Shown here: in pieces, positions 47,041 to 63,008 of the stretch
Numbering within the stretch: the first letter of the stretch is position 1
Layout of the letters: each line of letters begins with the position of its first letter
Assembly: GCA_010671905.1 (NCBI GenBank)
Contig: JAAHII010000001.1
Coordinates: 1,550,001 to 1,614,000, forward strand
Source: Leptolyngbya sp. SIOISBB
Lineage (GTDB): Bacteria; Cyanobacteriota; Cyanobacteriia; Phormidesmidales; Phormidesmidaceae
DNA: 64,000 bases
Direction of reading: 5' to 3'
Program-made: the position numbers and the translations under genes
Notes under the pieces: generated by a model
What the model saw: the letters and a program-made list of their open reading frames with translations, nothing else
Database searches by the model: none
What the model was told of the DNA's origin: nothing

Positions 47041-48066
47041 ATGGCCCATTCCACCGGAAAAATTATTGGTCAACGCGTTCTCGGTGCGATTCCTAGCGTC
47101 ATCGGTGTCGTGATTGTGACGTTTTTGCTGACCCGGGCGTTGCCGGGGGATCCGGCGGCGTTTTTTGCAGGGCCAGCAGCGACGGCTGAGGCCATCGATG
47201 AAGTGCGCGCCACGCTAGGACTCGATAAAACCCTGCCCGAACAGTTTTTCCTGTATCTCGGTGATTTGGTGCGGGGAGATTTGGGGATGTCGCTGACCAC
47301 GGGGCAATCCGTCGTGTATGACTTGGCAACTCGGTTACCGGCTTCGCTGGAATTGACGTTGGCAGGGTTAGTGTTGGCGATCGCCCTCGCCCTACCCCTC
47401 GGCATCCTCGCCGCAACGAAGCCCAACTCCTGGATTGACCACGGCGTCCGTCTACTGGCTACTGCTGGGGTTTCTCTCCCCACCTTCTTCACCGGGTTGT
47501 TTCTCATCTACACCCTGTATTACCAGCTGGGTTGGGCGCCCGCACCGCTGGGTCGCTTGGATATTCTCTACAGCGCCCCTCCCCAGGTAACGGGGTTGTA
47601 TCTCATTGACAGCTTGCTAGCAGGGGACTTGGAACTGTTTTGGGCAGCGGCCTCGCAGCTCTTTTTGCCCGCTGTTACGCTGGGTCTCTTTGCCTTAGCG
47701 CCGCTCGCTCGGGTGACCCGTGCTTCCATGCTGGGCATGCTTTCTAGCGATTTCATCCGCACGGCTCGGGCCAGTGGCTTACCCCCTCGGCAAGTCCTCT
47801 TCGGCTATGCCTTCCGCAATGCCATGCTGCCGGTGATCACGACTCTCGGCGTGGTGTTTTCCTTTCTCCTAGGGGCCAACATCCTCGTTGAGAAAGTGTT
47901 TGCCTGGCCGGGAATTGGATCTTATGCCGTCGAAGCGCTGGTCGCCTCGGACTATGCCCCCATCCAGGGATTCATTCTCACCATGGCCTTGCTTTATGTG
48001 GTGCTGAATTTGTTGATTGATTTGCTATACGTCGTGATTGATCCGCGCGCGGGAGTTGAAGCATGA
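47041..48066 (+). CDS. ABC transporter permease, DppB/OppB type
   Basis: A 341-residue inner membrane permease with six transmembrane helices; the first is followed by the DppB-type periplasmic loop. Conserved sites: the ATPase coupling helix segment FIRTARASGLPPRQVLFGYA and RNAMLPVITTLGVVFSFLLG. It overlaps the next permease gene by 4 bases (ATGA), which fits translational coupling. Confidence 0.93.
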   Translation: MAHSTGKIIGQRVLGAIPSVIGVVIVTFLLTRALPGDPAAFFAGPAATAEAIDEVRATLGLDKTLPEQFFLYLGDLVRGDLGMSLTTGQSVVYDLATRLPASLELTLAGLVLAIALALPLGILAATKPNSWIDHGVRLLATAGVSLPTFFTGLFLIYTLYYQLGWAPAPLGRLDILYSAPPQVTGLYLIDSLLAGDLELFWAAASQLFLPAVTLGLFALAPLARVTRASMLGMLSSDFIRTARASGLPPRQVLFGYAFRNAMLPVITTLGVVFSFLLGANILVEKVFAWPGIGSYAVEALVASDYAPIQGFILTMALLYVVLNLLIDLLYVVIDPRAGVEA

Positions 48067-48911
48067 CCTCAAGTACCTTCCAACACACCCGATACGTCAT
48101 CAGCGAAAACCTGATCACCTTTGGAGCCTTTGGGCTGTTTTTGGTGTTTGTACTGTTCGCGATTTTTGGCGAGGCGATCGCCCCTTACGATCCGCTCGCG
48201 AGCAATGCGGCTGTTGCCCTACAGCCCCCCTCTGCTGCTCATTGGTTTGGCACTGATGAACTGGGGCGCGATATTCTCAGTCGGGTCATCGTCGCCACGC
48301 GCTTGGATTTAGGCATCGCTGTGGTGGCGGTGTTCCTCTCGTTTATCGTCGGTAGCCTGTTGGGCACTTGCGCAGGATACTTTGGCGGCTGGAGCGATCG
48401 CATCATTTCCCGCTGTATTGATACGTTAATGGCCTTCCCCCTGTTTGTGTTGGCGATGGGTCTCGTCGCCGCCTTGGGAAATACCGTCACCAACATCATC
48501 TACGCGACTGCCATCATTAACCTGCCTCTTTACACCCGTGTCGTTCGCTCTGAGGTGCTAGTGCGGCGAGAAGCCGGTTTTGTCGAAGCCGCCCGATTAA
48601 CCGGCAACAGTGAATGGCGCATTATGGTTCGCCACCTGTTCCCAAACGTCTTGCCCGTGATGATGGTGCACATTTCTTTGAATATGGGCTGGGCCATTCT
48701 CAACGCCGCTGGCCTTTCCTTCATTGGTCTCGGGGTACAGCCGCCGACCGCTGAGTGGGGCATTATGGTCGCCGAAGGCGCCACCTACATTGTGTCAGGC
48801 GAATGGTGGTTGGCTTTGTTCCCAGGCACAGTGCTAATGCTGGCGGTCTTCTGTTTTAACCTGCTCGGTGATGGATTACGCGATCTGATCGACCCGAGAA
48901 TGCGTACTTAG
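48063..48911 (+). CDS. ABC transporter permease, DppC/OppC type
   Basis: A 282-residue partner permease with the DppC N-terminal helix, APYDPLASN, a large loop containing HWFGTDELGRDILSRVI, and the coupling motif FVEAARLTGNSEWRIMVRHL. The ATG overlaps the DppB-like stop. Confidence 0.93.
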   Translation: MTSSTFQHTRYVISENLITFGAFGLFLVFVLFAIFGEAIAPYDPLASNAAVALQPPSAAHWFGTDELGRDILSRVIVATRLDLGIAVVAVFLSFIVGSLLGTCAGYFGGWSDRIISRCIDTLMAFPLFVLAMGLVAALGNTVTNIIYATAIINLPLYTRVVRSEVLVRREAGFVEAARLTGNSEWRIMVRHLFPNVLPVMMVHISLNMGWAILNAAGLSFIGLGVQPPTAEWGIMVAEGATYIVSGEWWLALFPGTVLMLAVFCFNLLGDGLRDLIDPRMRT

Positions 48912-49063
48912 TAGAAGGTGCAGGAGATAGGGAGATGGGGAGATGGGGAGCAGGAGTCTGCGTAACGCTTGTCAAAGCCCTCATGCCCTCAAAGCCCCTC
49001 AGCCCCTTAAGCCCCTCATCTCCCCTTTCCCCTATGCCCCTTAAGCCCCTCTGCCCAAGTCGC
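48912..49063 (+). repeat. Strand-biased spacer after the second permease
   Basis: GGGAGATGGGGAGATGGGGAGC-like tandem G/A repeats are followed by repeated CCCCTTAAGCCCCTC units. It resembles the other spacers of this operon. Confidence 0.5.
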
Positions 49064-49435
49064 TCATATCAACCAAGGAGATGGATTATGGATGATTTTT
49101 ACTAGCTTGCCGAGAATGCGATCGTAATTACGAGACAAGTCTTGTCCCAGTTCCTGATTAAGATAGCCACACCGCACTGCAAAGTTGATCCAGGTTTGGG
49201 TTTCTGCCGCTTCTGCTTCTGAATCACTCAGCTTGGCAATAAATGCCGCCCGATATCGCCGCTTACGCCAAGCCTCCGCTAAATTTGCACACACCGATCG
49301 CGACGATCGCCGCATCTGATCCGTCAGAGAATACCGCTCCTCCACCGGGAACCGCTTACTCAACTGAAAAATCTGCATCGCCATTTCAAACGCCAGCTTG
49401 TAGACCTCCAATTCCTCATGCCCCCTGATTGCCAT
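49064..49435 (-). CDS. Four-helix bundle protein (23S rRNA-intervening-sequence family)
   Basis: A 123-residue protein antisense to the ABC operon, between the permease and ATPase genes. It starts MAIRGHEELEVYKLAFEMAM and continues with SLTDQMRRSSRSVCANLAEA and FIAKLSDSEAEAAETQTWIN, the pattern of the S23/IVP four-helix bundle family (PF05635). Function is unknown; copies occur as scattered insertions, including in rRNA genes. ATG 49435 is chosen; the longer frame to 49558 only translates the C-rich spacer. Confidence 0.85.
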   Translation of the reverse strand: MAIRGHEELEVYKLAFEMAMQIFQLSKRFPVEERYSLTDQMRRSSRSVCANLAEAWRKRRYRAAFIAKLSDSEAEAAETQTWINFAVRCGYLNQELGQDLSRNYDRILGKLVKIIHNPSPWLI

Positions 49436-49556
49436 AAAGCTCTGTCCGCCCAGCAACGCAACTGCCCATAATTCTGCCCAATTCACCCCCAGCTCTTCCT
49501 GCCCCCTAGCTCCCCTGCCCCTCTCTTGCCCCTTTGGCCCTCCGCCCTTTCCAAAC

Positions 49557-50591
49557 ATGACGCTTCATCAGTCTGCTTTACCAGTAACACCTCCAACTGA
49601 CACTGTTCCTTCGCAGCTATTGAGTGTCGAAAATCTCAACGTCGAGTTTCGGACCCGTTCTGGGGTCGTGAAAGCCTTAGAAGCCGTCAGCTTTGGAATC
49701 AAGCCGGGCGAGACTGTCGGCATTGTGGGAGAAAGTGGCTCGGGTAAGTCTGTAACGGCATTCACCCTAATGGGCGTGCTGGATCGAGCAGGCAAAGTGA
49801 CGGGTGGGAAGGCCCTCTTTCAGAGCGATCTCGTCGCCGTCAATCTGCTGAAAGAACCGGAATCCTCGTTGCGGCAGTTGCGCGGCAAAGAACTGTCGAT
49901 GATCTTTCAGAACCCTCGTACCGCGCTGAATCCTATTCGAAAGGTGGGCAAGCAGATTACGGATGTCCTACGTTGTCACACTGACTTGTCGGGCGGTGAC
50001 CTACGCGATCGCGCCATTGAGATGCTGGCCAGCGTTCGCATACCTGACCCCGACCAGCGCTACGATGCCTACCCTTATGAACTCTCGGGGGGTCTCTGTC
50101 AGCGCATCATGATCGCGATCGCGCTGGCCTGCTCTCCCAAACTACTCATTGCTGACGAACCGACCACCGGGCTAGATGTCACTACCCAAGCCACAGTGAT
50201 GAACCTCATCAAAGATTTAGCTACCCAGCAACAAATGGCCGCCATTCTGATTACCCATGACCTGGCGCTAGCGTCGGAATACTGCGATCACATCGTCGTT
50301 ATGCACGCTGGTCACGTGGTGGAAGCAGCTGCCACCCACAACCTGTTTCAAACACCCCGACATCCCTACACCGCCAAACTTATCGCTGCCACCCCCGAAC
50401 CCCACAAAGCCTTTCAAGACTTGATTCCGATTGCGGGCAACCTCCCTGATCTCAAAGCCACCAACATTCCCCCCTGCCGATTTAGTCAACGGTGCGATCG
50501 CTACGAATCCGCCCTTTGCGACCAAGCCCCTCTGACTCGCCAACAACTGTCGTCAGAACATCATGTTGCTTGTTGGAAACCATTGGAATGA
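49557..50591 (+). CDS. ABC transporter ATP-binding protein, DppD/OppD type
   Basis: A 344-residue ATPase. Walker A GESGSGKS, signature LSGGLCQRIMIAIALA, Walker B LLIADEPTTGLD, switch His in ILITHDLALASEY. The C-terminus has the oligopeptide-transporter extension with Cys residues (PPCRFSQRCDRYESALCDQ), which can hold an Fe-S cluster in some DppD proteins. Pairs with the second ATPase at 50813. Confidence 0.93.
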   Translation: MTLHQSALPVTPPTDTVPSQLLSVENLNVEFRTRSGVVKALEAVSFGIKPGETVGIVGESGSGKSVTAFTLMGVLDRAGKVTGGKALFQSDLVAVNLLKEPESSLRQLRGKELSMIFQNPRTALNPIRKVGKQITDVLRCHTDLSGGDLRDRAIEMLASVRIPDPDQRYDAYPYELSGGLCQRIMIAIALACSPKLLIADEPTTGLDVTTQATVMNLIKDLATQQQMAAILITHDLALASEYCDHIVVMHAGHVVEAAATHNLFQTPRHPYTAKLIAATPEPHKAFQDLIPIAGNLPDLKATNIPPCRFSQRCDRYESALCDQAPLTRQQLSSEHHVACWKPLE

Positions 50592-50812
50592 GTTAAGGAG
50601 CAGGGGAGCAGGGGAGCGGAGGAGCGGAGGAGAATAGACACGTTTCATATTTCCAAATTGCCAATCTCCATCACCCCAACGCTCCCTCGCCCCCAAAGCC
50701 CCCTTACCCCCAAAAGCCACACAAGTCACCCTGCTCCTCAAGCCCCCAAGCTCCTCAAGCCCCCAAGCTCCCCAAGCTCCCTAAAGCTCCCTTGCCCCCC
50801 TCCCAACCTCCC
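50592..50812 (+). repeat. Strand-biased spacer between the two ATPase genes
   Basis: GGAGCAGG-type 8-base tandem units near 50601-50632 are followed by long C/T-rich AAGCCCCCAAGCTCC repeats up to the next start. Same design as the other operon spacers. Confidence 0.6.
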
Positions 50813-51796
50813 ATGACCTCCCTTACCAAACCCCCACCTCAAACAGACACCCTGCTCCAAGTCCACGACCTTTGCAAAACCTTTCCCGTCGGCAAAAATG
50901 CAAATCTGCACGCTGTAGACCACATCTCCTTCCACATTCGACCGGGTGAGAGTGTGGGGCTCGTTGGCGAATCGGGTTGTGGTAAATCCACCCTAATCCG
51001 CCTGATCACGCGCTTGCTCAACGTCACCTCCGGCACTATCCAGTTCGAAGACACCATTTTGAGTACCGTCGACGTTCGACAATTTCCTAAAAGTCCTCAC
51101 CGCAAAGGGATTCAGTTGGTCTTCCAAGACCCAACCGATAGCTTGAATCCTCGGTTTACTGCCTATGACACCATCACCGAACCCATCAAACGGCTAGAAG
51201 GCTGGCGCGATAAGGCTAAATTGCAAGCCCGCGCGACTGAACTCGCCGATCTCGTCGGCCTACCCCAAGAACTTCTGAGCCGGTTTCCCCATCAACTCTC
51301 CGGTGGTCAGAAAGCGCGAGTGGGTATTGCCCGTGCGATCGCCCTCAATCCAAAGTTATTAGTTCTGGACGAACCGACCTCAGCCCTAGATGTCTCAGTC
51401 CAAGCCGTCATCTTGCATCTCCTCGCGGATCTCAAAGAACGTCTGGGCATGAGCTACCTTTTTGTCTCCCATGATTTGAATGTGGTGCGGCTACTGTGCG
51501 ATCGCATTCTGGTCATGTATCTCGGCAAAATTATCGAAGCGGGTCCCGTCGAGCAAGTCTTCAATCATCCCCGCCATCCCTACACTGAAGCTCTCATCTC
51601 CGCCATCCCCAGCTTTGAAGCCAAACCTCACCCCATCCCCCTCACTGGCGAACCTCGCAGCCCCATCAATCCTGCCCCCAACGTCTGCCGTCTCTATGGT
51701 CGCTGTCCCAAAGGCGAAGAAACCTGTCAACAAGTCATGCCAGACCTGGAAGAAATTGCCCCGGATCACTGGGCAGCCTGTCACTTTCATAACTGA
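50813..51796 (+). CDS. ABC transporter ATP-binding protein, DppF/OppF type
   Basis: A 327-residue ATPase. Walker A GESGCGKST, Q-loop LVFQDPTDSLNPRF, signature LSGGQKARVGIARAIAL, Walker B LLVLDEPTSALDVSVQ, His in YLFVSHDLNVVRLL, and the C-terminal Cys cluster CRLYGRCPKGEETC. ATG 50813 is chosen over an upstream TTG. Confidence 0.93.
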   Translation: MTSLTKPPPQTDTLLQVHDLCKTFPVGKNANLHAVDHISFHIRPGESVGLVGESGCGKSTLIRLITRLLNVTSGTIQFEDTILSTVDVRQFPKSPHRKGIQLVFQDPTDSLNPRFTAYDTITEPIKRLEGWRDKAKLQARATELADLVGLPQELLSRFPHQLSGGQKARVGIARAIALNPKLLVLDEPTSALDVSVQAVILHLLADLKERLGMSYLFVSHDLNVVRLLCDRILVMYLGKIIEAGPVEQVFNHPRHPYTEALISAIPSFEAKPHPIPLTGEPRSPINPAPNVCRLYGRCPKGEETCQQVMPDLEEIAPDHWAACHFHN

Positions 51797-52003
51797 CTCA
51801 AAATGCAAGGGGACGGAGGAGCAGGGGAGCAGAAGCAGTGAATCGATCCGCGAGGACAAGTTTGTCAAAATCCGTCTCCATTCTAAAATCTCCCAGAGCC
51901 CCTCAATCCTCCATGCCCCAAAGCCTCTACGCTTCACTGCCGTTCTTCCCCAAAGCTCCTTACGCTCTCAAAGCTCCCCCCAGCCTCCAAAATCCTAAAA
52001 CCC
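51797..52003 (+). repeat. Strand-biased spacer before the amidohydrolase
   Basis: A G/A-rich half (GGACGGAGGAGCAGGGGAGC) is followed by a C/T-rich half with AAGCTCC and AAGCCTC repeats. Same design as the other operon spacers. Confidence 0.5.
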
Positions 52004-53230
52004 ATGACCCCGATGCAAACCTACGACCTCGTTCTCACCGGTGGACACGTCATCGATCCGAGCCAATCCCTGGATGGCCAGTATGATGTCGCTATTCGGG
52101 ATGGCAAAATTGCCGCGATCGCAGCCGAGCTACCACTCCACATCACTAAAGCAACTCATTCTGTGGCCGGACAAATTGTCTGCCCCGGTTTCATCGATCT
52201 CCATGTCCATGTTTACGAGTGGGTCACCGATTTTGGACTCTGGCCCGATGATGTCGGTGTCAATGCCGGTGTGACCACGGTGGTCGATCAGGGCAGTTGT
52301 GGACCGCTCACCTTTTTAGGCTTCCAAGCCAATATCGTGCGTCCAGCTCAAACCGACGTGCGCTGTTTCCCCTCAGTCAACCTCGCCGGAGCGCTCAAGG
52401 GCGGCATGGGCACACCAGCTTTGCACAGCCCTGACATGGTTGATCTAGCAGCATTGTTAAAGCTCGCCCGAGAAAATCCTGAAACGGTTCGCGGCTTCAA
52501 AGTCCATGGTGAATCTGGCGCCTTATCCCGCTGGGGTACTCAGGTCATTGAGTTAGCCAGACAGGCAGCGGATGCCGCCCAACTTCCCCTCTATGTCCAC
52601 ACCGGCGAGCTTTTCGCCGTGGTTGAGGAAAATCGCCCTGCCCCAGACCAGGTGATTGACTATGTTTTGCCCCATTTGAAATCGGGTGATTTGTTGGCGC
52701 ATTGCTATAGTTGCCGCCCCGATGGCCTGATGGGAGATCGCTCCGATCCTTCGCCAGCATTAGTTGCAGCTATTCAAGCAGGTGTCCGTCTCGATTTAGG
52801 CCATGGCATTAATTTTAGTTTTGCGATCGCTCGCCGCATGATGGCGCAGGGACTGTTGCCGTACACCATCAGTAGCGATGTCCACGGCGATTTTGCCACC
52901 CCCCATAACGATGCCACCCTGGACTACAGCCTGTGTGGAGCCTTGTCGAAGTTAGTTGCTCTGGGTATGGATTTAAAGGCTGCGATCGCGGCGGTTACCC
53001 TCCATCCCGCCACCGTCTTACAAGCTGAAAAGGACTTGGGAACGCTCAAAGTAGGGACCCCAGCCGACATCACAATTTTGGCGAAAACCGATGCGCCCTG
53101 GATTTGCCGCGATGCCCAAGGAGAATCACTAATCGCCCCGCAAAAATTCATTCCTGCTTGGGTGGTGAAGTCAGGACAGTTGTTGCAACCCCATCGTCGC
53201 CTCCTGCGGGATCTCGTCATGGCCAGCTAA
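52004..53230 (+). CDS. Amidohydrolase/deacetylase family metallohydrolase
   Basis: A 408-residue TIM-barrel metal-dependent hydrolase (EF_0837/AHA_3915 type). Metal ligands: DLHVHVYEW, the candidate carboxylated Lys in GFKVHGESG, LYVHTGELF, LAHCYSC and ISSDVHGDF. The flanking beta-sandwich begins YDLVLTGGHVIDPSQSLDG and closes with ADITILAK. Members cleave cyclic amides or N-acyl groups; the substrate here is unknown. As the last gene of the transporter operon it may process the imported compound. Confidence 0.88.
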   Translation: MTPMQTYDLVLTGGHVIDPSQSLDGQYDVAIRDGKIAAIAAELPLHITKATHSVAGQIVCPGFIDLHVHVYEWVTDFGLWPDDVGVNAGVTTVVDQGSCGPLTFLGFQANIVRPAQTDVRCFPSVNLAGALKGGMGTPALHSPDMVDLAALLKLARENPETVRGFKVHGESGALSRWGTQVIELARQAADAAQLPLYVHTGELFAVVEENRPAPDQVIDYVLPHLKSGDLLAHCYSCRPDGLMGDRSDPSPALVAAIQAGVRLDLGHGINFSFAIARRMMAQGLLPYTISSDVHGDFATPHNDATLDYSLCGALSKLVALGMDLKAAIAAVTLHPATVLQAEKDLGTLKVGTPADITILAKTDAPWICRDAQGESLIAPQKFIPAWVVKSGQLLQPHRRLLRDLVMAS

Positions 53231-53400: not shown

Positions 53401-54252
53401 CTAATTGATGAACTCCTGTGGTCCAGAGTAGCCCGATAGCTCGGCCAAAGATTCTAAAGACTGCACCCCGGCATAAGTTTCACCATTAATCTCCCAGGTC
53501 GGGTAACTTTCTACACCAGCGGCTCGACAAGCCTGAGGTTGAGGGTCGATACCTTCGATATCACATTCAACATAGGTCACGTAATCAAACGCCTGTTGAC
53601 CAAACAGCGTCTGTTGGGCATGGCAATGGGGACACCACCAAGCGCCGTATTTCGTTGCTCCGATCGCCGTTAGATGCTGCGCCAGGGCAATTTCTGCTTC
53701 TCCAGATTCCGTAGTGACCGCTTGGGGAGCGTTGCCGGTCGCAAACGTATCCGGATTGCCCGCATAAGCGAACATGCCCGTGGTGACTAAGCCCGTCACC
53801 ATCACCACACAGATGCCTGGCAAGAGCAACTGCCCCATGTCTTCCCAACGGTTGCCGACGAGCGTTAATCCCAACAGGGCCATGCTGATAACGGCAGATA
53901 GCACACAGGGTACACAGGGTTCTCGCAGGACCCCAAACATGACGTACAGCAAGTAGCTACTCACCATCACCATGGCGGTACTGCCGATAAATAGACCTAA
54001 CCAGGTGGGGGGCTCTAAGGATTTGTTTTTCGTCAACACTGGGCCTAGGGCCAAGATGCCCATCAGGCCATAGGCGATCGCGCCCAGTAGAGGCAAAGAC
54101 AACCCCGCCAACGTGACATAAGCGCTGCCTGATAGTGCACTATTCCCTTTCGCTAGACAGCCAATGGACAACATTAAGCCCGCGGCGGCAGCCCCGCCAA
54201 TCAAGTAGCGAGAGTTGCGATGCATCCAAGTGGTGGGTTTTCTGCGTGCCAT
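53401..54252 (-). CDS. VKOR-thioredoxin fusion, lacking the usual loop cysteines
   Basis: A 283-residue membrane protein: four to five transmembrane helices of the VKOR family (LSLPLLGAIAYGLMGILAL, SSYLLYVMFGVLREPC), the quinone-site CXXC at 113-116 (CVPC), a fifth helix, then a periplasmic/lumenal thioredoxin-like domain with WWCPHC (207-210) and cis-Pro in ESYPTW. In typical cyanobacterial VKOR fusions two loop cysteines shuttle electrons between these sites; here the loop (GCLAKGNSALSGSAYVTLAG) keeps at most one Cys (32) in a shortened stretch. Oxidative folding is the family role; this copy may be altered or inactive in relay. Confidence 0.82.
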   Translation of the reverse strand: MARRKPTTWMHRNSRYLIGGAAAAGLMLSIGCLAKGNSALSGSAYVTLAGLSLPLLGAIAYGLMGILALGPVLTKNKSLEPPTWLGLFIGSTAMVMVSSYLLYVMFGVLREPCVPCVLSAVISMALLGLTLVGNRWEDMGQLLLPGICVVMVTGLVTTGMFAYAGNPDTFATGNAPQAVTTESGEAEIALAQHLTAIGATKYGAWWCPHCHAQQTLFGQQAFDYVTYVECDIEGIDPQPQACRAAGVESYPTWEINGETYAGVQSLESLAELSGYSGPQEFIN

Positions 54253-54314: not shown

Positions 54315-55211
54315 CTAGCTGTCGTTAATAGCGTGAGCTAACGCCTGCAATTCTGGGATGGGCAAGGCTGCCACCAGGGCATAGAGATGGTGGTCATCGC
54401 GCCAGAGCACGAGCCCCGTACCATCCGATTGTTGGAGGGTGATCATGGCCGATGCCAATTCCGGCAGGGACTGATCGCTAACCTGGAGCTGATAGGCCGA
54501 AACCGTTTGGTCTGCCGAGAGCTGATAGGTAAGCCTTAGTCCTGAGGTCTCGCCAAACTGGCATTTGCTGGCCCCTAGTAGCTGACCTTGAGGCAGTAGA
54601 GGTAGGGCTGCCACTGTGGTGGCAAACTCAGGCACTTGACTGGGAATGTCACTCGCCTGACGGATCACAAAATCGACTGGCCCATCCGGATTATCAAGAG
54701 ACTTCTGATGGTCTTGCAGGATGTCGTCGAGGCCAGCCCAAGTCTGGGCCACGCTTATTTGATCAGGTGTTTGCTCAGATTGAGCCTGTTGGAAACGCAT
54801 TTGACCATTCAGGCGTACCGCGACCAAACCGCAGACAATAGCAAAGCCTGCAGCGACACTGCCCATCACCCAGCGGCGCTGCGATCGCGGCTGGAATACT
54901 TTTGCAGGTGTGGTTTCCTGCTTGCCAAACTCTGTGACACCTAACGCGATTGGATCGGTCGTCAAGTTTGCTTGCAATTCCGCCTCGGCTCTGGTCAAAA
55001 GCTGCGATCGCACGCCGGTATCCACTTCGACCTCCGCCAAGCCGTAGGGCATGACGGCCAGCGCTTCCTGCAGGGTCACGACCTCTTGACCGAGTTCTGG
55101 CAATTCCGCCAACAATGCCTGGAATAATTCGGCTTCGTCAGAATCTAAATCTCCCAGCACATAACCCGCAGCTAATTCTTGGATCTCTTGCGGAGACAAC
55201 GACATCGTCAT
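54315..55211 (-). CDS. Anti-sigma factor, RskA-like
   Basis: A 298-residue single-pass membrane protein. N-terminal zinc-less anti-sigma domain (SPQEIQELAAGYVLGDLDSD), one transmembrane helix at about 111-130 (WVMGSVAAGFAIVCGLVAV), and the extracytoplasmic RskA C-domain with CQFGETSG and LYALVAALP. It should sequester the sigma factor encoded just upstream: its ATG overlaps the sigma stop by 4 bases (ATGA at 55208-55211). Confidence 0.85.
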   Translation of the reverse strand: MTMSLSPQEIQELAAGYVLGDLDSDEAELFQALLAELPELGQEVVTLQEALAVMPYGLAEVEVDTGVRSQLLTRAEAELQANLTTDPIALGVTEFGKQETTPAKVFQPRSQRRWVMGSVAAGFAIVCGLVAVRLNGQMRFQQAQSEQTPDQISVAQTWAGLDDILQDHQKSLDNPDGPVDFVIRQASDIPSQVPEFATTVAALPLLPQGQLLGASKCQFGETSGLRLTYQLSADQTVSAYQLQVSDQSLPELASAMITLQQSDGTGLVLWRDDHHLYALVAALPIPELQALAHAINDS

Positions 55212-55768
55212 GACAGATCCTCCTGCAGCGTGCTGAGTTGTTGGCGGAGCTGCAGTAGCCCTCGCCGCGCCCAGCTTTTGACGGTTCCTAGCGGCACCTC
55301 TAGTTGCTCAGCAATGTCGCTATGAGAGAGTCCCTCGTAGTAACTCATTTCTAAAACCTGCCGCTGCTGTGGCTTGAGAGCGAATAAGGCGCGCTTAACT
55401 AGGGCTCGGTTTTCTGCCTGGGTGAGGTGTTTCATCGGTGTTGTTAGGTCCACAGCAGACTGATGACGGTGCCAATGATGCTGATACTTTTGCCGAGTCG
55501 ATTGAGCTCTCAATCGATCGATGACGCGCGATCGCGTCAGGGTCGTTAAATAGCTCGCGAGGGAGCCGCGGCTCGGGTTGTACGTACGAGTCCGCATCAA
55601 GCTTAAAAACACTTCTTGGGTCAGGTCTTCAGCCTCTGCGACCTGACCTAACCCTTTGAGGGCAAGACTATAAACCAAGCGACCATAGCGGTCATACAGA
55701 CTTCCCATAGCCGCCAAGTCGCCCTGCCATAGCCGGGTCACCAGCACACTATCGGCTTGCTGCTCCAT
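55208..55768 (-). CDS. ECF (group 4) RNA polymerase sigma factor
   Basis: A 186-residue sigma-70 family factor with region 2 (SLYDRYGRLVYSLALKGLG, EAEDLTQEVFLSLMR, the DNA-binding TTLTRSRVIDRLRAQS) and region 4 (LKPQQRQVLEMSYYEGLSHS, then DIAEQLEVPLGTVKSWARRG). ATG 55768 is preferred over the TTG 55813. Coupled with the membrane anti-sigma factor downstream; expected to respond to envelope stress. No target promoter can be named. Confidence 0.9.
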   Translation of the reverse strand: MEQQADSVLVTRLWQGDLAAMGSLYDRYGRLVYSLALKGLGQVAEAEDLTQEVFLSLMRTRTYNPSRGSLASYLTTLTRSRVIDRLRAQSTRQKYQHHWHRHQSAVDLTTPMKHLTQAENRALVKRALFALKPQQRQVLEMSYYEGLSHSDIAEQLEVPLGTVKSWARRGLLQLRQQLSTLQEDLS

Positions 55769-56222
55769 CACACTAATCTCACCGAATCTCTGAATCACAG
55801 CCCTACGGGTCAAAATTCATTAGGTATACGTTTGCCAATCGCGATCGGATGCAGTGTCAAAAGATTTTTTCAATTTCCATAGCCGCAGTGCTATTGAGGT
55901 TGCGGCATGAGAGACAGATGCTGGATAACGCTGCTGCCGGTCAAGCTAAGTCAAGTGATAGGCTCAGCATGGAGAATTATTGTCGACAAATCTGAACTCA
56001 TCAAGGCACTCAATCAGGTTTTGAGAAAGACACTACTGGCTAATAAAGTTACGGTTTTTCAAAATGCTGGGTGCATTAGAAGAAATTGCATAGAGTGTAT
56101 TGAACAACCTCAAATACCTTTGCCCTTAATGACCGATGGGACTGCAGTTGGTTCGATTTCACACGATAGGCCAATGCGGGTAATTGAGCACGTCTAACAC
56201 TGCCCAAAATAGGAACAGCACC
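55769..56222. other. Intergenic region upstream of the sigma factor and YecH-like gene
   Basis: 454 bases between divergent genes. An ATG-started plus ORF at 55907 (96 codons) has no family look and may be spurious. No RNA gene was recognised. Confidence 0.35.
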
Positions 56223-56465
56223 ATGTCAAACCGAATCCATGGACACGACGTGATGAGAATGATGTTAGACAATGGCCAGTCTTACACCAAAGACACGCTA
56301 CGCACGGCAATTGTCGATCGCTTTGGGCAAGAAACTCGGTTCTATACGTGCTCGGCTGAAAACATGACATCGGGTGAGTTGGTTGAGTTCCTGGCAGAAC
56401 GGGGTAAGTTCATCGAAACGGGTGCCGGATTCACCACCGCTGCCGAAAAAATCTGTGATCATTGA
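56223..56465 (+). CDS. YecH-like metal-binding protein (DUF2492)
   Basis: An 80-residue protein matching the YecH family (PF10678): NRIHGHDVMRMMLDNGQSYT, FGQETRFYTCSAENMTSGEL, VEFLAERGKF and the C-terminal CDH. Two His, one internal Cys and the C-terminal Cys-Asp-His could bind a metal. ATG 56223 has AGGA 8 to 10 bases before it; the frame from 56184 has no better start. The family is mostly proteobacterial, so its presence here may be transfer. Confidence 0.78.
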   Translation: MSNRIHGHDVMRMMLDNGQSYTKDTLRTAIVDRFGQETRFYTCSAENMTSGELVEFLAERGKFIETGAGFTTAAEKICDH

Positions 56466-56825
56466 TAGCCCCGCACCTTGATTGATGGAGTAGAAGGCTG
56501 CCATGCCAATTCTCCGTTCCGCCATTCTCCTAGAAAATTTAATTGGTTGAGCACCGACGTTCGGACCGATGTGTAGACATTACGATCCATCCCCTGATTG
56601 GCAGAGCTAAAGCCCTCGTCAAACGAATGACGCTTGCTAGATCTGGCATGGATACCGCTGTGTACTACTAATCGGCAACGGAGACAAAGGCGTCTGCTCC
56701 CACCCGTCCAATGGTCTGGTTTTTGCTTAGGGTAAGACCCTGTTACGGAAAATGGATAACGGGAAGGATCAATCCAAGTTTTGGGAACGTTGAAGAACAA
56801 GTCGTCTTGCGCCAAAACTCAGCAT
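56466..56825. other. Intergenic region before the giant kinase
   Basis: 360 bases. No gene or clear terminator is seen; it should carry the promoter of the hybrid kinase. Confidence 0.4.
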
Positions 56826-59800
56826 ATGGCCAGCATTGCCAGCCCGGTCTTATCCACACAGTTGCCCAACTACACCTTCGTCGAGACAATTTATCAAAGC
56901 ACTCGAACGATTGTCTACCGAGCGCTGAACAAGGCTACCCAAGAGCCTGTGGTGATTAAAGTTTTAGCTCAGGAGCATCCGAGCGTCACCGAACTGCTGC
57001 AGTTCAGCAACCAATATACGGTAGCTAGAGATTTACCAATTGCTGGCGTGATCCGTCCCCTCAGCCTGGAGCCTTATGGCAATGGCTATGCGCTGGTGAT
57101 GGAAGCCTTTGAGGGGGCTGATTTAAGACAATATATTCAGCAAAACACTTTAAGTATTGGTGACATTTTAAGCATCGGTATTCAGCTAGCGGATATTCTC
57201 CACGAGCTGCATCAACATCAGGTGCTTCACAAAGACATCAAGCCCGCCAACATTCTGATTCATCCCAAGTCAAAGCAGATCAAGCTGATTGATTTCGGTA
57301 TCGCCTCATTGCTGCCTAAAGAAACCCAAGCGATCCAAAGCCCCCAAAGTCTGGAAGGTACTTTGGCCTATATCGCCCCAGAACAAACCGGACGCATGAA
57401 TCGAGCGATCGACTATCGAACCGATTTCTATGCTTTTGGGGTCACCCTATACGAACTGTTGACGGGGCAACTACCTTTTATCAATGACGATCCACTGGGA
57501 TTGATTCATTGCCATATGGCGCAACTACCTACCGCTGTCGATCAAGTCAATCCGGCGGTGCCCGCCCCAGTAGCCGCGATTGTCGCCAAGCTGATGGCGA
57601 AGAATGCGGAAGACCGCTATCAGAGTGCCTTAGGCCTGAAAACCGATCTGGAACGGTGTTTGACCGAGTGGGAAAAGCAGGGTCACATTAGTGACTTTGC
57701 TTTAGGCGAGCGGGATTTAAGCGATCGCTTCCTGATTCCTGAAAAACTCTACGGTCGCGAACCAGAAGTGCAGGCCCTGCTCGATGTCTTTGAGCGAGTG
57801 GCTCAGGGTCACCGTGAACTGATGCTAGTGGCGGGCTTTTCCGGCATCGGTAAAACCGCCGTCATCAACGAAGTCCACAAACCCATCGTCAAAAATCGCG
57901 GTTACTTCATCAAAGGCAAATTCGACCAATTCAATCGCAACATTCCCTTCTCCGCCTTCGTGCAAGCCTTCCGTCACTTGATGGGGCAGATTCTCAGCGA
58001 ATCGAACACCGCATTAGACCAGTGGGAAACCCAAATCCTGGCAGCTGTCGGCCCCAACGGACAAGTGCTAATCGATGTCATTCCCGAACTGGAACGGGTC
58101 ATTGGCGAACAACCGGCCGTCCCGGAACTCTCCGGTAGCGCCGCGCAGAATCGCTTTAACCTGCTGTTTGAGCAATTCATTGCCGTCTTCACCACCCCAG
58201 AACATCCACTGGTGATCTTTCTCGACGACTTGCAATGGGCCGACTCCGCTTCGCTTAACTTGATGAAAGTGCTCATGGGCGATCGCGAGCGAGGCTATTT
58301 ACTACTGCTGGGGGCCTACCGCGATAACGAAGTCTTTCCCACCCATCCGCTGATGTTGAGTTTGGCCGACTTGGCGAAGCAAAAAGCGACCATTTCTACC
58401 ATTACTCTGGCACCCTTATCGATACCTCACATCAATCAACTCGTCGCCGAAACGCTCAGTTGCCCCGTGGAGACCGCTCAACCCTTGACGGAGTTGGTGT
58501 ATCAAAAGACTCAAGGCAATCCCTTCTTCAGCACCCAATTCTTGACCGGTTTGCATGAAGACGAATTAATTACGTTTAATCCCAGTTTGGGTGATTGGGA
58601 ATGTGATTTAGTCAAGGTGCTCGATGCGGCCCTGACGGATGACGTCGTGGAGTTCATGGCAGGTCGGTTGCAGAAATTGCCCGCAGGGACGCAAGCCGTA
58701 TTGAAGCTTGCGGCTTGTATTGGCAACCAGTTTGATCTAAAAACGTTAGCCATCGTGCGAGAAAAGCCTTGGGAAGAAGTAGCGAGTGAGCTTTGGATTG
58801 CCCTGCAAGAAGGGATAATTTCACCGATTAGCGAAGCGTACAAGTTCTTTCAAGATGAGCTGAGCTCGACGGAAGCCGATCCAACTGCGGTCAATTATCG
58901 TTTCCTGCACGACCGCATTCAACAGGCAGCTTATTCGCTAATTCCTGAAGAACAAAAAAAGGCGAACCATTATTACATTGGACAACTCCTGCTAAAGGGA
59001 AATTCTCAAGCACAAGAGGAAAATATTTTTGATATTGTTAACAACCTAAATAAGGGAATTAGCATAATAGACGATTATCAACAGCATCAAGAACTAGTAA
59101 GCCTTAATCTTATAGCTGGCCAAAAAGCAAAGCAGTCTGCGGCTTATTCTGAATCTGCCTCCTATTTCGAACAGGCAATTGAGTTGCTCGGAGAGAAAGG
59201 ATGGCGTGATCAATACACTATTATTCTAGAAGTCTATTCAGAGTTAATCGATGTTCAATTTTTAAGAGGTGAGTTTCAAGTTGTTGATGCAATTTATACT
59301 CAAACCTTAGAGCAGCTTAAGACTCATGTTGATGCCATTGCTATTTATCGCGCACAGATTTCTAGCTATCACGCTCAAGGGAAAATAATAGAAGCATTGG
59401 AGTTAGGAATCGATCTCCTCAATTCTCTAGATCTGGAAATCTGCATCGAAACAGGTGCAGCCGCAATCGAGCGAAAGTTTAAGCAAACCCTGTTAGATTT
59501 TAGTACCAAAAGCATTCGTGACTTCGTTGAATTACATCAATCGAAAGAACAATGGCTTCTAGGCGTACAAGATCTGCTTAGCTTAATGATTGGCTGTGCT
59601 TACAAGGCCAGACCAGAGCTTTTATCTCCCATTATTTGCGAACAGGTTTCTTTATTGATGCGTTACGGAAACATTCCCGCATCGGCATCAATTTACGCTA
59701 ACTATGGATTCTTACTTTGTAATACTAAAGAGTTTGAGTGGGGCTACTTTGCGGGAGAGGTAGCATTAGCTGTAATGGAATCATTGCCAGCCAAGCAGTT

Positions 59801-62800
59801 TGAGGCCCGGGCAATTAACATAATTTATACCTATCTCAAACCCTGGAAAAATCATCTCAGAGACTCACTTAGCCATTTAAAAAAGAATGTATCGATTGGC
59901 TTAGAGTCTGGAGACCTAGAATATGCTGCTTACAGCATTAATAATTATTGTAAGTTTATCTACCATGCAGGAATCAACCTAGAAACAGTTAATCAGGAGA
60001 TGAAAATATATTGCGATGTACTAAAAGCGTATCGACAAGAACCGATGCTAATTTGGACGCAGATTTTTCATCAGACTGTTGCTAATTTAATGGGAAATAA
60101 TGATTTTCCTTGGGAAATCGAAGGAGATTCTTTCAAAGAAAGTGAACATCTTCTATATTGGCAAGAAAACAACATAAGACACTTCAGCGCACCACTCTAT
60201 ATCAACAAATTGGTATTGAGCTTTATATTTAATAAGACTACTTTAGCGGTAGATTACGCAGCAATTGCGAGTCAAGACATTGATGGGTTCAGAGAATATC
60301 AGCTCCCATTTTTATATGCGTACCGAGCATTATCTCATCTAGCATTGGTGGAGCAATATTCCCTAAAGGCGAAGCAAGAATGTCTTAAGCAAGTGGTAAC
60401 CGATATAGAAAAGTTAGAGGGCTTTGCGAGCAAAGCTCCCATGAACTTTCAGCATTACGTCGATTTGATCAAGGCGGAGAAATGTCGAGTGTTGGGAGAA
60501 AAAAATGAGGCTATAGAGTTATACGATCACGCCATCGCCAGAGCCAAAGAAAACGCATACATTCAAGAAGAAGCGCTAGCAAATGAACTGGCTGCCAAGT
60601 TCTACCTCAATTGGGGAAGAGAAAAAGTGGCGGCTGTTTACATGCAAGATGCCTACTACTGCTATACCCACTGGGGGGCCAAAGCGAAAGTAGCGGATTT
60701 AGAAACCCGCTATCCAGAGTTGTTGCGCCCCATCTTGGCAGCGCCAGCAACATCTAACGATGTGTTGACTACACTGGTGACCCTTGCTGCACCGACGATA
60801 TCAGTTCATCCTGAAACTTGCTCTCAGATCAGTACGAACAGCCTTAATCAAACTCTGGATTTTGCCAGTGTTCTGAAAGCCTCTCAAGCGATCTCTAGCA
60901 CGATTCAGCTGGATGATTTACTGAGCCAATTTATTCAAATCATGCTGACCAATTCTGGGAGCGATCGCTGTGCCTTGCTGCTGCCCGATGAAGCTGGGAT
61001 CTGGCAAGTTCGAGCCATGGCCACTCCGCAAGAGACACATCTGGGTACAGAGCCGCTAGATAACAACCCTCATGTACCAGTCAAACTGATTCAATACGTT
61101 AAAAATACTCAAGAAGCTTTGGTGATTGATGATCTAGAGACTGACATGCCTGTCGTTGATGACTATCTCAGACACCACCAACCCAGTAGTGTGTTGTGTT
61201 TGCCAATCCTTAATCAAGGCCGTTGTATTGGGGTTTTGTATCTCAGCAATCAACTCACTAGTGGTGTGTTTACAAATGAACGTATTCTAGTCCTTAACTT
61301 TCTCTGTATCCAGGCGTCTATTTCTCTAGAAAACGCTCGACTCTACACTAAAACTCAAGAAGATCAACGACGGCTAGCCACCCTGATGAGTAACCTGCCT
61401 GGGATGGCCTACTTGGCAGGCAACGATAGGCATTGGACGATGTATTTTGCGAGCGAAGGTTGTTTCGAACTTACGGGCTATACCTCAGACGAGCTCACCA
61501 ATAATCGTGTCACTGACTTTGGCAGCATCATTCATCCCGATGATATTGAGGCGACCTGTCTTGAAATCGAAGCCGCGATCGCTGCCCAACGACCCTATCA
61601 AGTGGTATATCGTATTCGGACTAAGCAAGGCGAAGAAAAGTGGCTCTGGGAACAGGGACAGGCCATGTGGGATGACAACGGTCATCCCACATGGCTGGAA
61701 GGGCTAATTATTGACATCAGCGATCGCAAAGCTGCTGAGGAGGCCTCTCAGCAATTCCAAAAGCGACTAGAATTTCTGATCGATCAAGCGCCCATGGGCA
61801 TGGTTGAGTGGAATCCTGATTTTGAAATTATCGGTTGGAACACAGCAGCGGAGAAAATTTTTGGCTATTCAGCTACTGAAATGCTTGGACAGCAGGGTAT
61901 GCAATTTATTCCCGAGTCTGTACGTCCTTGGGTAGCTGAGCTCAGAACCAAATTACGAGAACAAAGAGGAGGCACTTTCAGTCTCAATGAGAACCTTCGA
62001 AAAGACGGTACTACCATTATCTGTGAATGGGTTAATACAGTGCTACGAGACGCTGACAAAAATTTCATTGGCGTATTTTCAATGGTGCAGGACGTGAGCG
62101 AGCGCGAAAGCGCCAAGGCGGCGATCACCCAAAAGTCTCAGACTCTAAAACAAACACTCGCAAAGCTACAGCAAACCCAATTGCAAATGATTCAGAGTGA
62201 AAAAATGGCAGTCTTAGGCAATTTAGTTGCTGGTGTGGCTCATGAAGTCAATAATCCCATTGGGTTTCTCAACGGTAGTATCCAAAATGCTGAAGACTAT
62301 GTACAAGACCTATTTGAGTATTTGGAAACTTATCAGGAGCTACAACCGCCCAATGATCAAGTTCAGGAAAGTGCTGAAGAGGTCGACTTAGACTTTTTGC
62401 GAGAAGACTTGCCCAAGTTGCTGAACTCAATGAAAGGGGCAACTGATCGCATCAAGGGCATCAGCACTAGTCTCCGCACCTTTTCCCGTGCTGATACAGA
62501 AAATAAGGTCACAGCCAATCTGCATGAAGGGCTCGACAGCACCCTGCTGATTTTGAAATATCGATTGAAAGCAAACCAGCAACGTCCAGCTATTGAGGTT
62601 GAACAACATTATGGTGAATTACCCGAGATCGAGTGCTTTCCGGGTCAACTCAATCAGGTCTTCATGAATATTCTGGCCAATGCTATTGATATGTTTGATG
62701 AGGCGGCCCAGAAAAACACTTTTGAAGAAATGAGAAAAAACCCTCAAAAAATTACGATTAAGACTGCGATACTGATCGAAAAAAATGTTGTCAAGATCCG

Positions 62801-63008
62801 CATTGCTGACAATGGTGAAGGTATGTCAGATGAAATAAAGTCCAAAATATTTAACAGCTCATTTACGACTAAAGAAGTAGGCAAAGGCACTGGTTTAGGG
62901 CTGGCAATCGCTCAACAAATCATCGAAGAAACACATGAAGGTACTCTCACAGTGGAGTCTAAGGTGGGGCAGGGAACTGAATTTTGCATCTACTTACCTG
63001 CCAGCTAA
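56826..63008 (+). CDS. Giant hybrid Ser/Thr kinase-AAA-GAF-PAS-histidine kinase
   Basis: A 2060-residue signalling protein. Order: Ser/Thr kinase (about 1-290; catalytic VLHKDIKPANILIHP, DFG motif in LIDFGIASLLP, APE in IAPEQTG); AAA-16-type ATPase (about 310-600; Walker A in GFSGIGKTA, Walker B in VIFLDDLQWAD); a long helical TPR-like middle (600-1340); GAF (1345-1508; HHQPSSVLCLPILNQGRCIG); two PAS (about 1517-1640 and 1645-1762); HisKA with phospho-His in AGVAHEVNNPIGFLNGS (about 1806); HATPase_c to the end (DNGEGMSDEIKSKIFNSSFT, GKGTGLGLAIAQQI). ATG 56826 is chosen because the kinase domain follows directly. Such hybrids are common in filamentous cyanobacteria; no stimulus is known. The middle region (about 58960-60700) is visibly more AT-rich than the rest. 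Confidence 0.9.
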   Translation: MASIASPVLSTQLPNYTFVETIYQSTRTIVYRALNKATQEPVVIKVLAQEHPSVTELLQFSNQYTVARDLPIAGVIRPLSLEPYGNGYALVMEAFEGADLRQYIQQNTLSIGDILSIGIQLADILHELHQHQVLHKDIKPANILIHPKSKQIKLIDFGIASLLPKETQAIQSPQSLEGTLAYIAPEQTGRMNRAIDYRTDFYAFGVTLYELLTGQLPFINDDPLGLIHCHMAQLPTAVDQVNPAVPAPVAAIVAKLMAKNAEDRYQSALGLKTDLERCLTEWEKQGHISDFALGERDLSDRFLIPEKLYGREPEVQALLDVFERVAQGHRELMLVAGFSGIGKTAVINEVHKPIVKNRGYFIKGKFDQFNRNIPFSAFVQAFRHLMGQILSESNTALDQWETQILAAVGPNGQVLIDVIPELERVIGEQPAVPELSGSAAQNRFNLLFEQFIAVFTTPEHPLVIFLDDLQWADSASLNLMKVLMGDRERGYLLLLGAYRDNEVFPTHPLMLSLADLAKQKATISTITLAPLSIPHINQLVAETLSCPVETAQPLTELVYQKTQGNPFFSTQFLTGLHEDELITFNPSLGDWECDLVKVLDAALTDDVVEFMAGRLQKLPAGTQAVLKLAACIGNQFDLKTLAIVREKPWEEVASELWIALQEGIISPISEAYKFFQDELSSTEADPTAVNYRFLHDRIQQAAYSLIPEEQKKANHYYIGQLLLKGNSQAQEENIFDIVNNLNKGISIIDDYQQHQELVSLNLIAGQKAKQSAAYSESASYFEQAIELLGEKGWRDQYTIILEVYSELIDVQFLRGEFQVVDAIYTQTLEQLKTHVDAIAIYRAQISSYHAQGKIIEALELGIDLLNSLDLEICIETGAAAIERKFKQTLLDFSTKSIRDFVELHQSKEQWLLGVQDLLSLMIGCAYKARPELLSPIICEQVSLLMRYGNIPASASIYANYGFLLCNTKEFEWGYFAGEVALAVMESLPAKQFEARAINIIYTYLKPWKNHLRDSLSHLKKNVSIGLESGDLEYAAYSINNYCKFIYHAGINLETVNQEMKIYCDVLKAYRQEPMLIWTQIFHQTVANLMGNNDFPWEIEGDSFKESEHLLYWQENNIRHFSAPLYINKLVLSFIFNKTTLAVDYAAIASQDIDGFREYQLPFLYAYRALSHLALVEQYSLKAKQECLKQVVTDIEKLEGFASKAPMNFQHYVDLIKAEKCRVLGEKNEAIELYDHAIARAKENAYIQEEALANELAAKFYLNWGREKVAAVYMQDAYYCYTHWGAKAKVADLETRYPELLRPILAAPATSNDVLTTLVTLAAPTISVHPETCSQISTNSLNQTLDFASVLKASQAISSTIQLDDLLSQFIQIMLTNSGSDRCALLLPDEAGIWQVRAMATPQETHLGTEPLDNNPHVPVKLIQYVKNTQEALVIDDLETDMPVVDDYLRHHQPSSVLCLPILNQGRCIGVLYLSNQLTSGVFTNERILVLNFLCIQASISLENARLYTKTQEDQRRLATLMSNLPGMAYLAGNDRHWTMYFASEGCFELTGYTSDELTNNRVTDFGSIIHPDDIEATCLEIEAAIAAQRPYQVVYRIRTKQGEEKWLWEQGQAMWDDNGHPTWLEGLIIDISDRKAAEEASQQFQKRLEFLIDQAPMGMVEWNPDFEIIGWNTAAEKIFGYSATEMLGQQGMQFIPESVRPWVAELRTKLREQRGGTFSLNENLRKDGTTIICEWVNTVLRDADKNFIGVFSMVQDVSERESAKAAITQKSQTLKQTLAKLQQTQLQMIQSEKMAVLGNLVAGVAHEVNNPIGFLNGSIQNAEDYVQDLFEYLETYQELQPPNDQVQESAEEVDLDFLREDLPKLLNSMKGATDRIKGISTSLRTFSRADTENKVTANLHEGLDSTLLILKYRLKANQQRPAIEVEQHYGELPEIECFPGQLNQVFMNILANAIDMFDEAAQKNTFEEMRKNPQKITIKTAILIEKNVVKIRIADNGEGMSDEIKSKIFNSSFTTKEVGKGTGLGLAIAQQIIEETHEGTLTVESKVGQGTEFCIYLPAS

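Follow-up and report, generated by a model that had tools for sequence, protein, structure and literature searches.

We asked how a VKOR–thioredoxin (Trx) fusion might pass electrons to quinone when the loop that normally carries two relay cysteines holds only one. The protein in question is encoded in a 64,000-nucleotide stretch of the genome of Leptolyngbya sp. SIOISBB (hereafter the window; G000:C1:1550001-1614000, from a genome of 8.3 Mb assembled as two contigs), from an ATG at 54252 to a stop codon at 53401-53403 on the minus strand, which also carries all the operon features described below. An earlier note, made from the letters alone, had called the 283-residue product of positions 53401-54252 a VKOR-thioredoxin fusion, and its open reading frame, strand and coordinates are right, as are both parts of the name. 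Pfam matches PF07884 (VKOR) to residues 41-130 at 56.2 bits against a cut-off of 27.5, and no other Pfam family matches at E 0.001; the single NCBIfam match is weak and lies far below its cut-off. Residues 7-276 align with the Synechococcus VKOR at E 1.6e-39, the Trx half falling on its Trx domain, and the named records among the closest proteins of the protein search are cyanobacterial.

The fold agrees with the profile. An AlphaFold2 model built on 59 aligned sequences (mean pLDDT 84.9) has helices at residues 9-35, 53-74, 77-109, 114-133 and 140-165 in addition to a Trx domain. Because the model matches the Synechococcus VKOR, we regard the five helices as transmembrane (TM) helices, and the Trx domain that follows them (residues ~185-273) as extracytoplasmic. 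The best solved matches listed are the Synechococcus VKOR entries 3kp9, 4nv2, 4nv5 and 4nv6 (Z 19.4-21.0, 36-38% identity); the human and fugu VKOR entries score Z 12.3-13.2. Over the whole model the rmsd to the Synechococcus entries is high (7.8-8.3 over 244-249 residues), which we take as a different placing of the Trx domain in the model, since that domain alone fits 3kp8 at 1.3 A over 93 residues (Z 16.8). The half-relay protein, as we call it here, is thus a VKOR family member by profile, above the curated cut-off, and by fold, with the four-helix bundle of solved VKORs. It has the fused Trx domain with CPHC after TM5 that is typical of the canonical form (C207, C210; 53623..53634, invariant in the 9-row clade alignment), and the conserved VKOR serine is present as S43 (codon 54124..54126; S62 in Synechococcus, S57 in human), a position that is Ser in 115 of 116 VKOR–Trx rows and a gap in one. 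We do not file it as a canonical four-cysteine VKOR–Trx oxidase, because the second loop cysteine, a defining feature of that type, is absent, although it may function like one.

This absence became apparent between TM1 and TM2. The loop of ordinary cyanobacterial VKORs typically reads C-x4-C...S-x-Y, and the window protein reads C32-LAKG-N37-SALSG-S43-AY, with C32 as the lone cysteine of the segment. The loop survey took in every VKOR–Trx ORF with two CXXC motifs from the loci that our searches had yielded, a non-random sample with a cyanobacterial focus (one canonical row, L102, is from a record titled Tatlockia). Among 116 distinct ORFs, 105 have both cysteines, nine have Cys followed by Asn (6) or Ser (3), and two are cut or broken at this point. 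The second relay position (C56 in Synechococcus, N37 here, codon 54142..54144) is therefore N or S in 9/9 full clade rows and Cys in 105/105 canonical rows, and no other loss of a loop cysteine was found among the latter. A partial member (L159, from genome G011, residues 1-40) also has C32 followed by N37, which brings the count to ten of the ten clade members that span the site. The loop is shortened as well: the distance between the N-terminal Trp and the invariant Ser is 34 residues in all nine clade rows with an N-terminus, against 44-54 in canonical rows (88 of the 105 could be measured), and the shortening of about 12 residues is fixed in the nine clade rows measured.

Is C32 a remnant of the pair or a new residue? 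In the alignment with ordinary cyanobacterial VKORs, which the earlier note had proposed as a check, and against an HMM of the 105 ordinary proteins, C32 (codon 54157..54159; invariant in the nine clade rows and in partial L159) falls in the register of Synechococcus C50, the first relay cysteine, with Gly at +4, Ser at +11 and Tyr at +13, and the second relay position is N or S. A 12-residue gap precedes C32 in the HMM alignment, where the posterior is low. The model places C32 near the end of the single helix 9-35, with a mean pLDDT of 67 for residues 31-40. It is likely, from this register, that C32 is the heir of the first relay cysteine, shifted down to the membrane surface; an alternative of uncertain standing is an ungapped TM1, which would make C32 a new residue within the helix. 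Other candidates for compensation fail, as C148 is Cys in only 2/9 clade rows and C230 and C242 are invariant in a 59-row alignment that includes the ordinary forms. With C32, C113/C116 (CVPC) and C207/C210 (CPHC), these complete the cysteines of the protein, and nothing stands in for the second relay cysteine. The shortened helix 1-2 loop with C32 only, described in the earlier note, is thus borne out, being about 12 residues short with Asn at the second position. The phrase "without the loop-cysteine pair" probably goes too far: the second cysteine is absent, but by sequence C32 lies in the first-Cys register, so that the pair is likely halved rather than wholly missing. The note was also correct that the two-cysteine relay is broken, so the usual route from Trx through the loop pair to the CXXC cannot run as described.

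We then considered whether the loop could be an artefact, that is, a sequencing error, a chimera or a decaying gene. The assembly does hold errors or pseudogenes, as seen in the ordinary VKOR–Trx paralogue of the window genome (L004:2658-3581, minus strand, at G000:C1 ~2052157-2053080), which has both loop cysteines and is split over different frames, with breaks near G and C runs (error or pseudogene); should the gene truly be broken, the half-relay protein would be the one complete VKOR of this strain. Nevertheless, this explanation has practically no chance of being right, as it is refuted by ten further genomes, a single open frame and a low dN/dS. The possible mis-read in 54120-54190 that the earlier note had allowed for is excluded by independent genomes sharing the loop. 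Nine of the ten further genomes carry the protein at 72-79% identity to that of the window in the search (71-77% within the clade alignment) and one as a fragment, giving 11 members in total. The nine loop-covering rows are from the window genome, Leptolyngbya sp. PCC 7375, Adonisia turfae, Leptolyngbya sp. Heron Island J, Leptothoe kymatousa and four MAGs (Cyanothece sp. SIO2G6 and three others). The first 42 residues of the Leptolyngbya cf. ectocarpi LEGE 11479 member are absent from its contig, and the G011 member (L159:3328-3447) is the contig-end fragment of residues 1-40. Searched against 63 genomes of the family, the window protein scores 418-495 bits with the other members, 60 with the G011 fragment and 256 with the next full-length protein. 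Across 388 genomes of the class, a clade profile, built mostly from the members themselves and scored on at most six candidates per genome, gave 519-619 in at least ten genomes; the other matches listed reach at most 310.5, and the G011 fragment is not among the matches listed.

The members are unevenly spread, with one of the six genomes of the window genus (the protein was not found in the five others), 8/8 genomes of genus g6, one of two in g5 (the fragment) and one genome of another family. This patchy distribution points to transfer or to losses on several occasions. In three sister genomes (G001, G002 and G005) synteny holds for the genes ahead of the operon, and the sequence after it differs; a clean empty site was not found in the sister genomes compared. 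Among the plasmid records searched, 24 have matches, all below 60% identity and 14 covering most of the query, and no close clade member was found. On one side of the operon, window positions 47041-53230 hold genes of a peptide-type ABC transporter and, after them, one for an amidohydrolase; three sister genomes show synteny for the amidohydrolase gene and the ABC gene next to it. On the other side, a DUF2492 (PF10678) protein at 56184-56465 adjoins the operon and is matched in 2/6 genomes of the genus, including that of the window. A 2075-residue ORF at 56781-63008 looks by eye like a fusion of Ser/Thr-kinase, ATPase, GAF/PAS and histidine-kinase parts.

The half-relay protein usually has an ordinary paralogue for company. 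Fetched from nine clade genomes, this paralogue has both loop cysteines and the CXXC in 9/9, and G011 also has an ordinary VKOR (L028), so that all ten other member genomes possess one. In eight genomes with both forms (28 pairs each), the VKOR half has a mean dN/dS of 0.081 in the half-relay form vs 0.073 in the ordinary one, and the Trx half has 0.050 vs 0.045; these values are rough, as dS is near saturation and the finite pairs number 24 and 24 for the VKOR halves and 17 and 6 for the Trx halves. Judged by these ratios, the half-relay form, at a dN/dS of about 0.08, is under purifying selection and not decaying. The half-relay state is that of a conserved subfamily rather than a one-off.

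A second departure lies at the quinone site, CVPC (C113, C116; 53905..53916), at the start of TM4. The earlier note had considered both this CXXC and the CPHC intact, which is true of the cysteines of the two motifs but not of the residues between the CXXC cysteines, which are not the usual ones. The clade has CVPC (seven rows), CIPC (two) or CVSC (one), that is C[VI][PS]C in 10/10 rows, with both cysteines kept in each. The residue ahead of the second cysteine is aromatic in 105/105 other VKORs (Y in 101, F in 4). Moreover, a proline found in 105/105 ordinary rows is Ser52 in 10/10 clade rows. With the CXXC remodelled and the relay halved, the electron path would therefore be altered at both ends.

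The genomic context of the gene suggests how such an enzyme might be controlled. An ECF sigma factor gene (55208..55813) and a gene for a putative anti-sigma factor (54315..55211) lie on the same strand and overlap by 4 bases, and the VKOR gene begins 62 bases on. The sigma factor is above cut-off for Sigma70_r2 (PF04542), Sigma70_r4_2 (PF08281) and Sigma70_ECF (PF07638), with no region-3 family among the ten families listed at E 0.1, and judging by the alignments its true start is likely the conserved ATG near 55768. The order sigma–anti-sigma–VKOR is found in nine of the ten clade loci with upstream DNA. In the exception, G011, a tyrosinase-like gene (by eye) lies upstream of the VKOR fragment, and the sigma/anti-sigma pair is on another contig with no Trx after it; we count this fragment without sigma linkage against a sigma-controlled reading. 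Of 189 loci that match VKOR or Trx (not deduplicated), 38 also have a sigma and an anti-sigma gene, and all 38 belong to the clade or to genus g8.

A promoter-like motif, TGCATCC-N16-CGTATA, precedes the sigma gene (55825..55853 in the window) in 9/9 clade loci, in each as a strict copy with a spacer of 16 no more than 170 bases upstream of the aligned sigma start. The strict motif has one match in the whole window genome, at 55825-55853, and the reversed-pattern control none. When the strict pattern was allowed a spacer of 15-17, 18 genomes gave 17 matches, 11 of them upstream of the operon's sigma gene and 6 elsewhere (reversed pattern, 0); the strict motif is present in 2/8 non-member genomes. 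Two copies with at most one mismatch, 105 to 125 bases apart, occur in five of the nine loci (L046, L047, L048, L051 and L053). Both are strict in L046 and L047; in L048 and L051 the strict copy lies further up, and the one closest to the gene carries a single mismatch. Outside the clade, a looser motif is found near the sigma gene in two of 12 sigma/anti-sigma loci, L155 (g8) and L245. We presume from this pattern that the motif is the autoregulated ECF promoter of the operon.

The anti-sigma factor (298 residues) could be the point at which thiol chemistry meets the sigma factor. It has no Pfam match at E 0.1, and its assignment is inferred from a model of low confidence (pLDDT 58.5), whose layout comprises N-terminal helices resembling a sigma-binding part, one presumed TM helix and an extracytoplasmic domain like the C-terminal domain of RseB/MucB. 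Residues 4-58 match the cytoplasmic part of MucA in its AlgU-bound form (6in7; rmsd 3.0 over 55) at a modest Z of 6.6, and residues 192-297 match RseB (2v42; rmsd 2.6 over 94) at an also modest Z of 9.4; the top six structure matches are all RseB or MucB. Its sole invariant extracytoplasmic cysteine, C217 (codon 54561..54563), is conserved in 9/9 clade anti-sigmas and in 11/11 rows of a further alignment (8 clade, 3 others). One could imagine that the operon is a quinone-redox sensor, in which quinone would set the state of C113–C116, the half relay would hold or release Trx, and Trx would alter C217 and so free the sigma factor. The linkage in nine of ten loci and the single invariant cysteine speak for this scheme, as does the uniqueness of the strict motif in the window genome, which would make the VKOR a direct part of the sigma circuit. 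On the other hand, a counterpart of C217 exists in 9/9 distant anti-sigma homologues without adjoining Trx or VKOR (neighbours judged by eye from same-strand ORFs in flanks of ~1.5 kb). The cysteine therefore predates the VKOR association and did not arise as a VKOR target; as a VKOR-specific adaptation, C217 is ruled out. We consider such a sensor unlikely. The fuller version of it, in which the half-relay, CXXC-remodelled VKOR acts as a regulator that reports (plasto)quinone redox state through its tethered Trx to the anti-sigma cysteine, within a self-contained autoregulated ECF operon that is its own sole strict-motif target in the window genome, we likewise judge unlikely. Distant cyanobacterial sigma/anti-sigma pairs that share the sensor-type domain and have a single conserved extracytoplasmic cysteine are found at L239-L243 and L245-L248.

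Genus g8, a sister group, shows the same operon with a different ending. In two of its genomes (G047 and G048) the third gene, behind sigma and anti-sigma, encodes a Trx-only lipoprotein (lipobox by eye; L155:3077-3583 and L156:3671-4148, both minus strand). Its identity to the window Trx is 63% (117 residues) for L155 and 52% (162 residues) for L156. The anti-sigma gene of L156 is split between frames, and no such anti-sigma was found in G046, the most complete g8 genome. In a Trx-domain tree of 65 rows and 109 columns, the clade and the g8 lipoproteins form sister groups (90/80, unstarred). Together they join ordinary f11-family VKORs (99/88, starred), well away from the common Trx lipoproteins, so that the g8 protein derives from the lineage of VKOR-fused Trx domains. 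Going by these sequences, the constant element of the operon is the Trx domain, with either the half-relay VKOR or a lipid anchor as its membrane part. The window genome also has a separate Trx-like lipoprotein with CPHC (L007; G000:C1:4112223-4112591), and Trx-only matches like it are listed for many family genomes, perhaps as soluble VKOR partners.

This difference raises the possibility that the VKOR half of the clade protein is mainly a membrane anchor. Trx would then be the working part, with the anti-sigma factor or other envelope proteins as its targets, and the ordinary VKOR paralogue would re-oxidise or reduce it in trans. The g8 operon, with its sister Trx, fits this possibility, and because its third gene is Trx-only, the VKOR half would be dispensable for the role of the g8 operon, which counts against the reading that we prefer below. 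The intact ordinary VKOR of the nine clade genomes fetched, and of G011, would provide the partner in trans. However, a mere anchor should drift, and here neither the CXXC cysteines nor Ser43 vary, while constraint on the VKOR half is about that seen in the ordinary paralogues; in addition, no ordinary VKOR that could serve the lipoprotein was found in G048 (87% complete). Overall we find an anchor role doubtful, though not negligible.

The retained CXXC cysteines, Ser43 and CPHC, together with a constraint like that of the ordinary paralogues, count instead for a working one-cysteine enzyme. We therefore propose, tentatively and at somewhat less than an even chance, that the half-relay protein is a sigma-controlled, still quinone-linked VKOR–Trx paralogue with a one-cysteine relay, a duplicate that has become specialised and has an ECF sigma factor of its own. 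The sigma factor would induce the enzyme, and electrons would still flow from thiols to (plasto)quinone through its single relay cysteine. In this scenario quinone oxidises C113–C116, C32 attacks the resulting disulfide, C207 of Trx takes C32 into a mixed disulfide and C210 resolves it, yielding oxidised Trx. Since C210 alone can resolve the C32–C207 bond, the transfer should be gated, or slower than in the ordinary enzyme. In the cell the protein would probably oxidise a few envelope thiols, or adjust their redox state, when the condition sensed by the sigma factor arises, and C217 of the anti-sigma factor is a candidate partner.

Several published results bear on this proposal; here and below, papers given by PMC number are cited from excerpts. 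In the textbook route, electrons pass from Trx C209/C212 to the loop pair C50/C56, then to C130/C133 and quinone (PMC3800646). In the sequence of the Synechococcus protein that was crystallised (3kp9), residue 56 is Ser, and its structure is reported to contain a C50–C209 disulfide (PMC4555152), which indicates that a bond between the first relay cysteine and Trx is structurally possible. The clade thus naturally has the relay-cysteine set of 3kp9, if C50 and Ser56 in the one correspond to C32 and N/S in the other. Studies of ordinary VKORs point both ways. Any single conserved-cysteine mutation abolished the activity of Arabidopsis VKOR in E. coli (PMC4400859), and human C43 and C51 were required in some studies (PMC4555152); both results speak against a relay of one cysteine in ordinary VKORs. 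Counting in its favour, VKOR with a single cysteine mutated gave a partial rescue of the mutant in Arabidopsis plants (PMC4400859), as do reports that the human loop cysteines can be dispensed with (PMC5732223). Alternatively, as the earlier note had suggested, the shortened loop might let C207 of Trx reach C113 directly, so that no relay is needed. The 12-residue shortening fixed in the clade would suit a direct transfer of this kind, and the loop cysteines of human VKOR are reported to be dispensable in cell assays (PMC5732223). Yet the invariance of C32 is unexpected if this residue has no role; being invariant and readable as the surviving first relay cysteine, it makes a one-cysteine relay as natural, and direct transfer appears to us very unlikely.

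These findings matter for the relay itself, because the requirement for the human loop pair is disputed (PMC5732223 vs PMC4555152) and the clade offers a direct test of the role of the second relay cysteine. It amounts to a natural experiment, with a conserved half-relay enzyme under its own sigma factor and, in most of the cells concerned, an ordinary paralogue alongside. It also suggests that quinone-coupled thiol chemistry may be connected to an ECF circuit. In the literature searched, mostly titles and the starts of abstracts with few subscription journals, we recognised no description of a VKOR that lacks the loop pair or is encoded next to a sigma factor. A review states that all VKOR homologues have the loop cysteine pair (PMC3800646), and a large phylogeny of 2015 found Cys43, Cys51, Ser57, Cys132 and Cys135 fully conserved (PMC4555120). 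That phylogeny was preceded by a manual culling of sequences that lacked the known conserved residues (PMC4555120), so half-relay proteins may have been seen and set aside.

Among the known systems, the Synechococcus VKOR shares with the window protein its fold, domain order, CXXC cysteines, Ser and Trx CPHC. The wild-type Synechococcus enzyme has two loop cysteines, C50 and C56 (PMC4555152), whereas the clade has C32 and N/S; the clade also differs in lacking the CXXC aromatic, in its sigma operon and in a loop about 12 residues shorter than that of most relatives. Arabidopsis LTO1/AtVKOR is likewise a VKOR–Trx fusion, located in thylakoid membranes, where it forms disulfides (PMC3800646). 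Unlike the clade, its loop has a Cx6C pair (PMC3800646), and its conserved cysteines are needed in E. coli and less strictly in the plant (PMC4400859). Human VKORC1 differs in having both loop cysteines, no Trx fusion and vitamin K epoxide as substrate; structures of its C43S form exist (6wv4 and 6wv5). Finally, the anti-sigma factor, as modelled, resembles the RseA–RseB and MucA–MucB systems in combining a MucA-like cytoplasmic part with an RseB/MucB-like C-terminal domain, and would differ from them in carrying both parts in one chain, together with one invariant cysteine.
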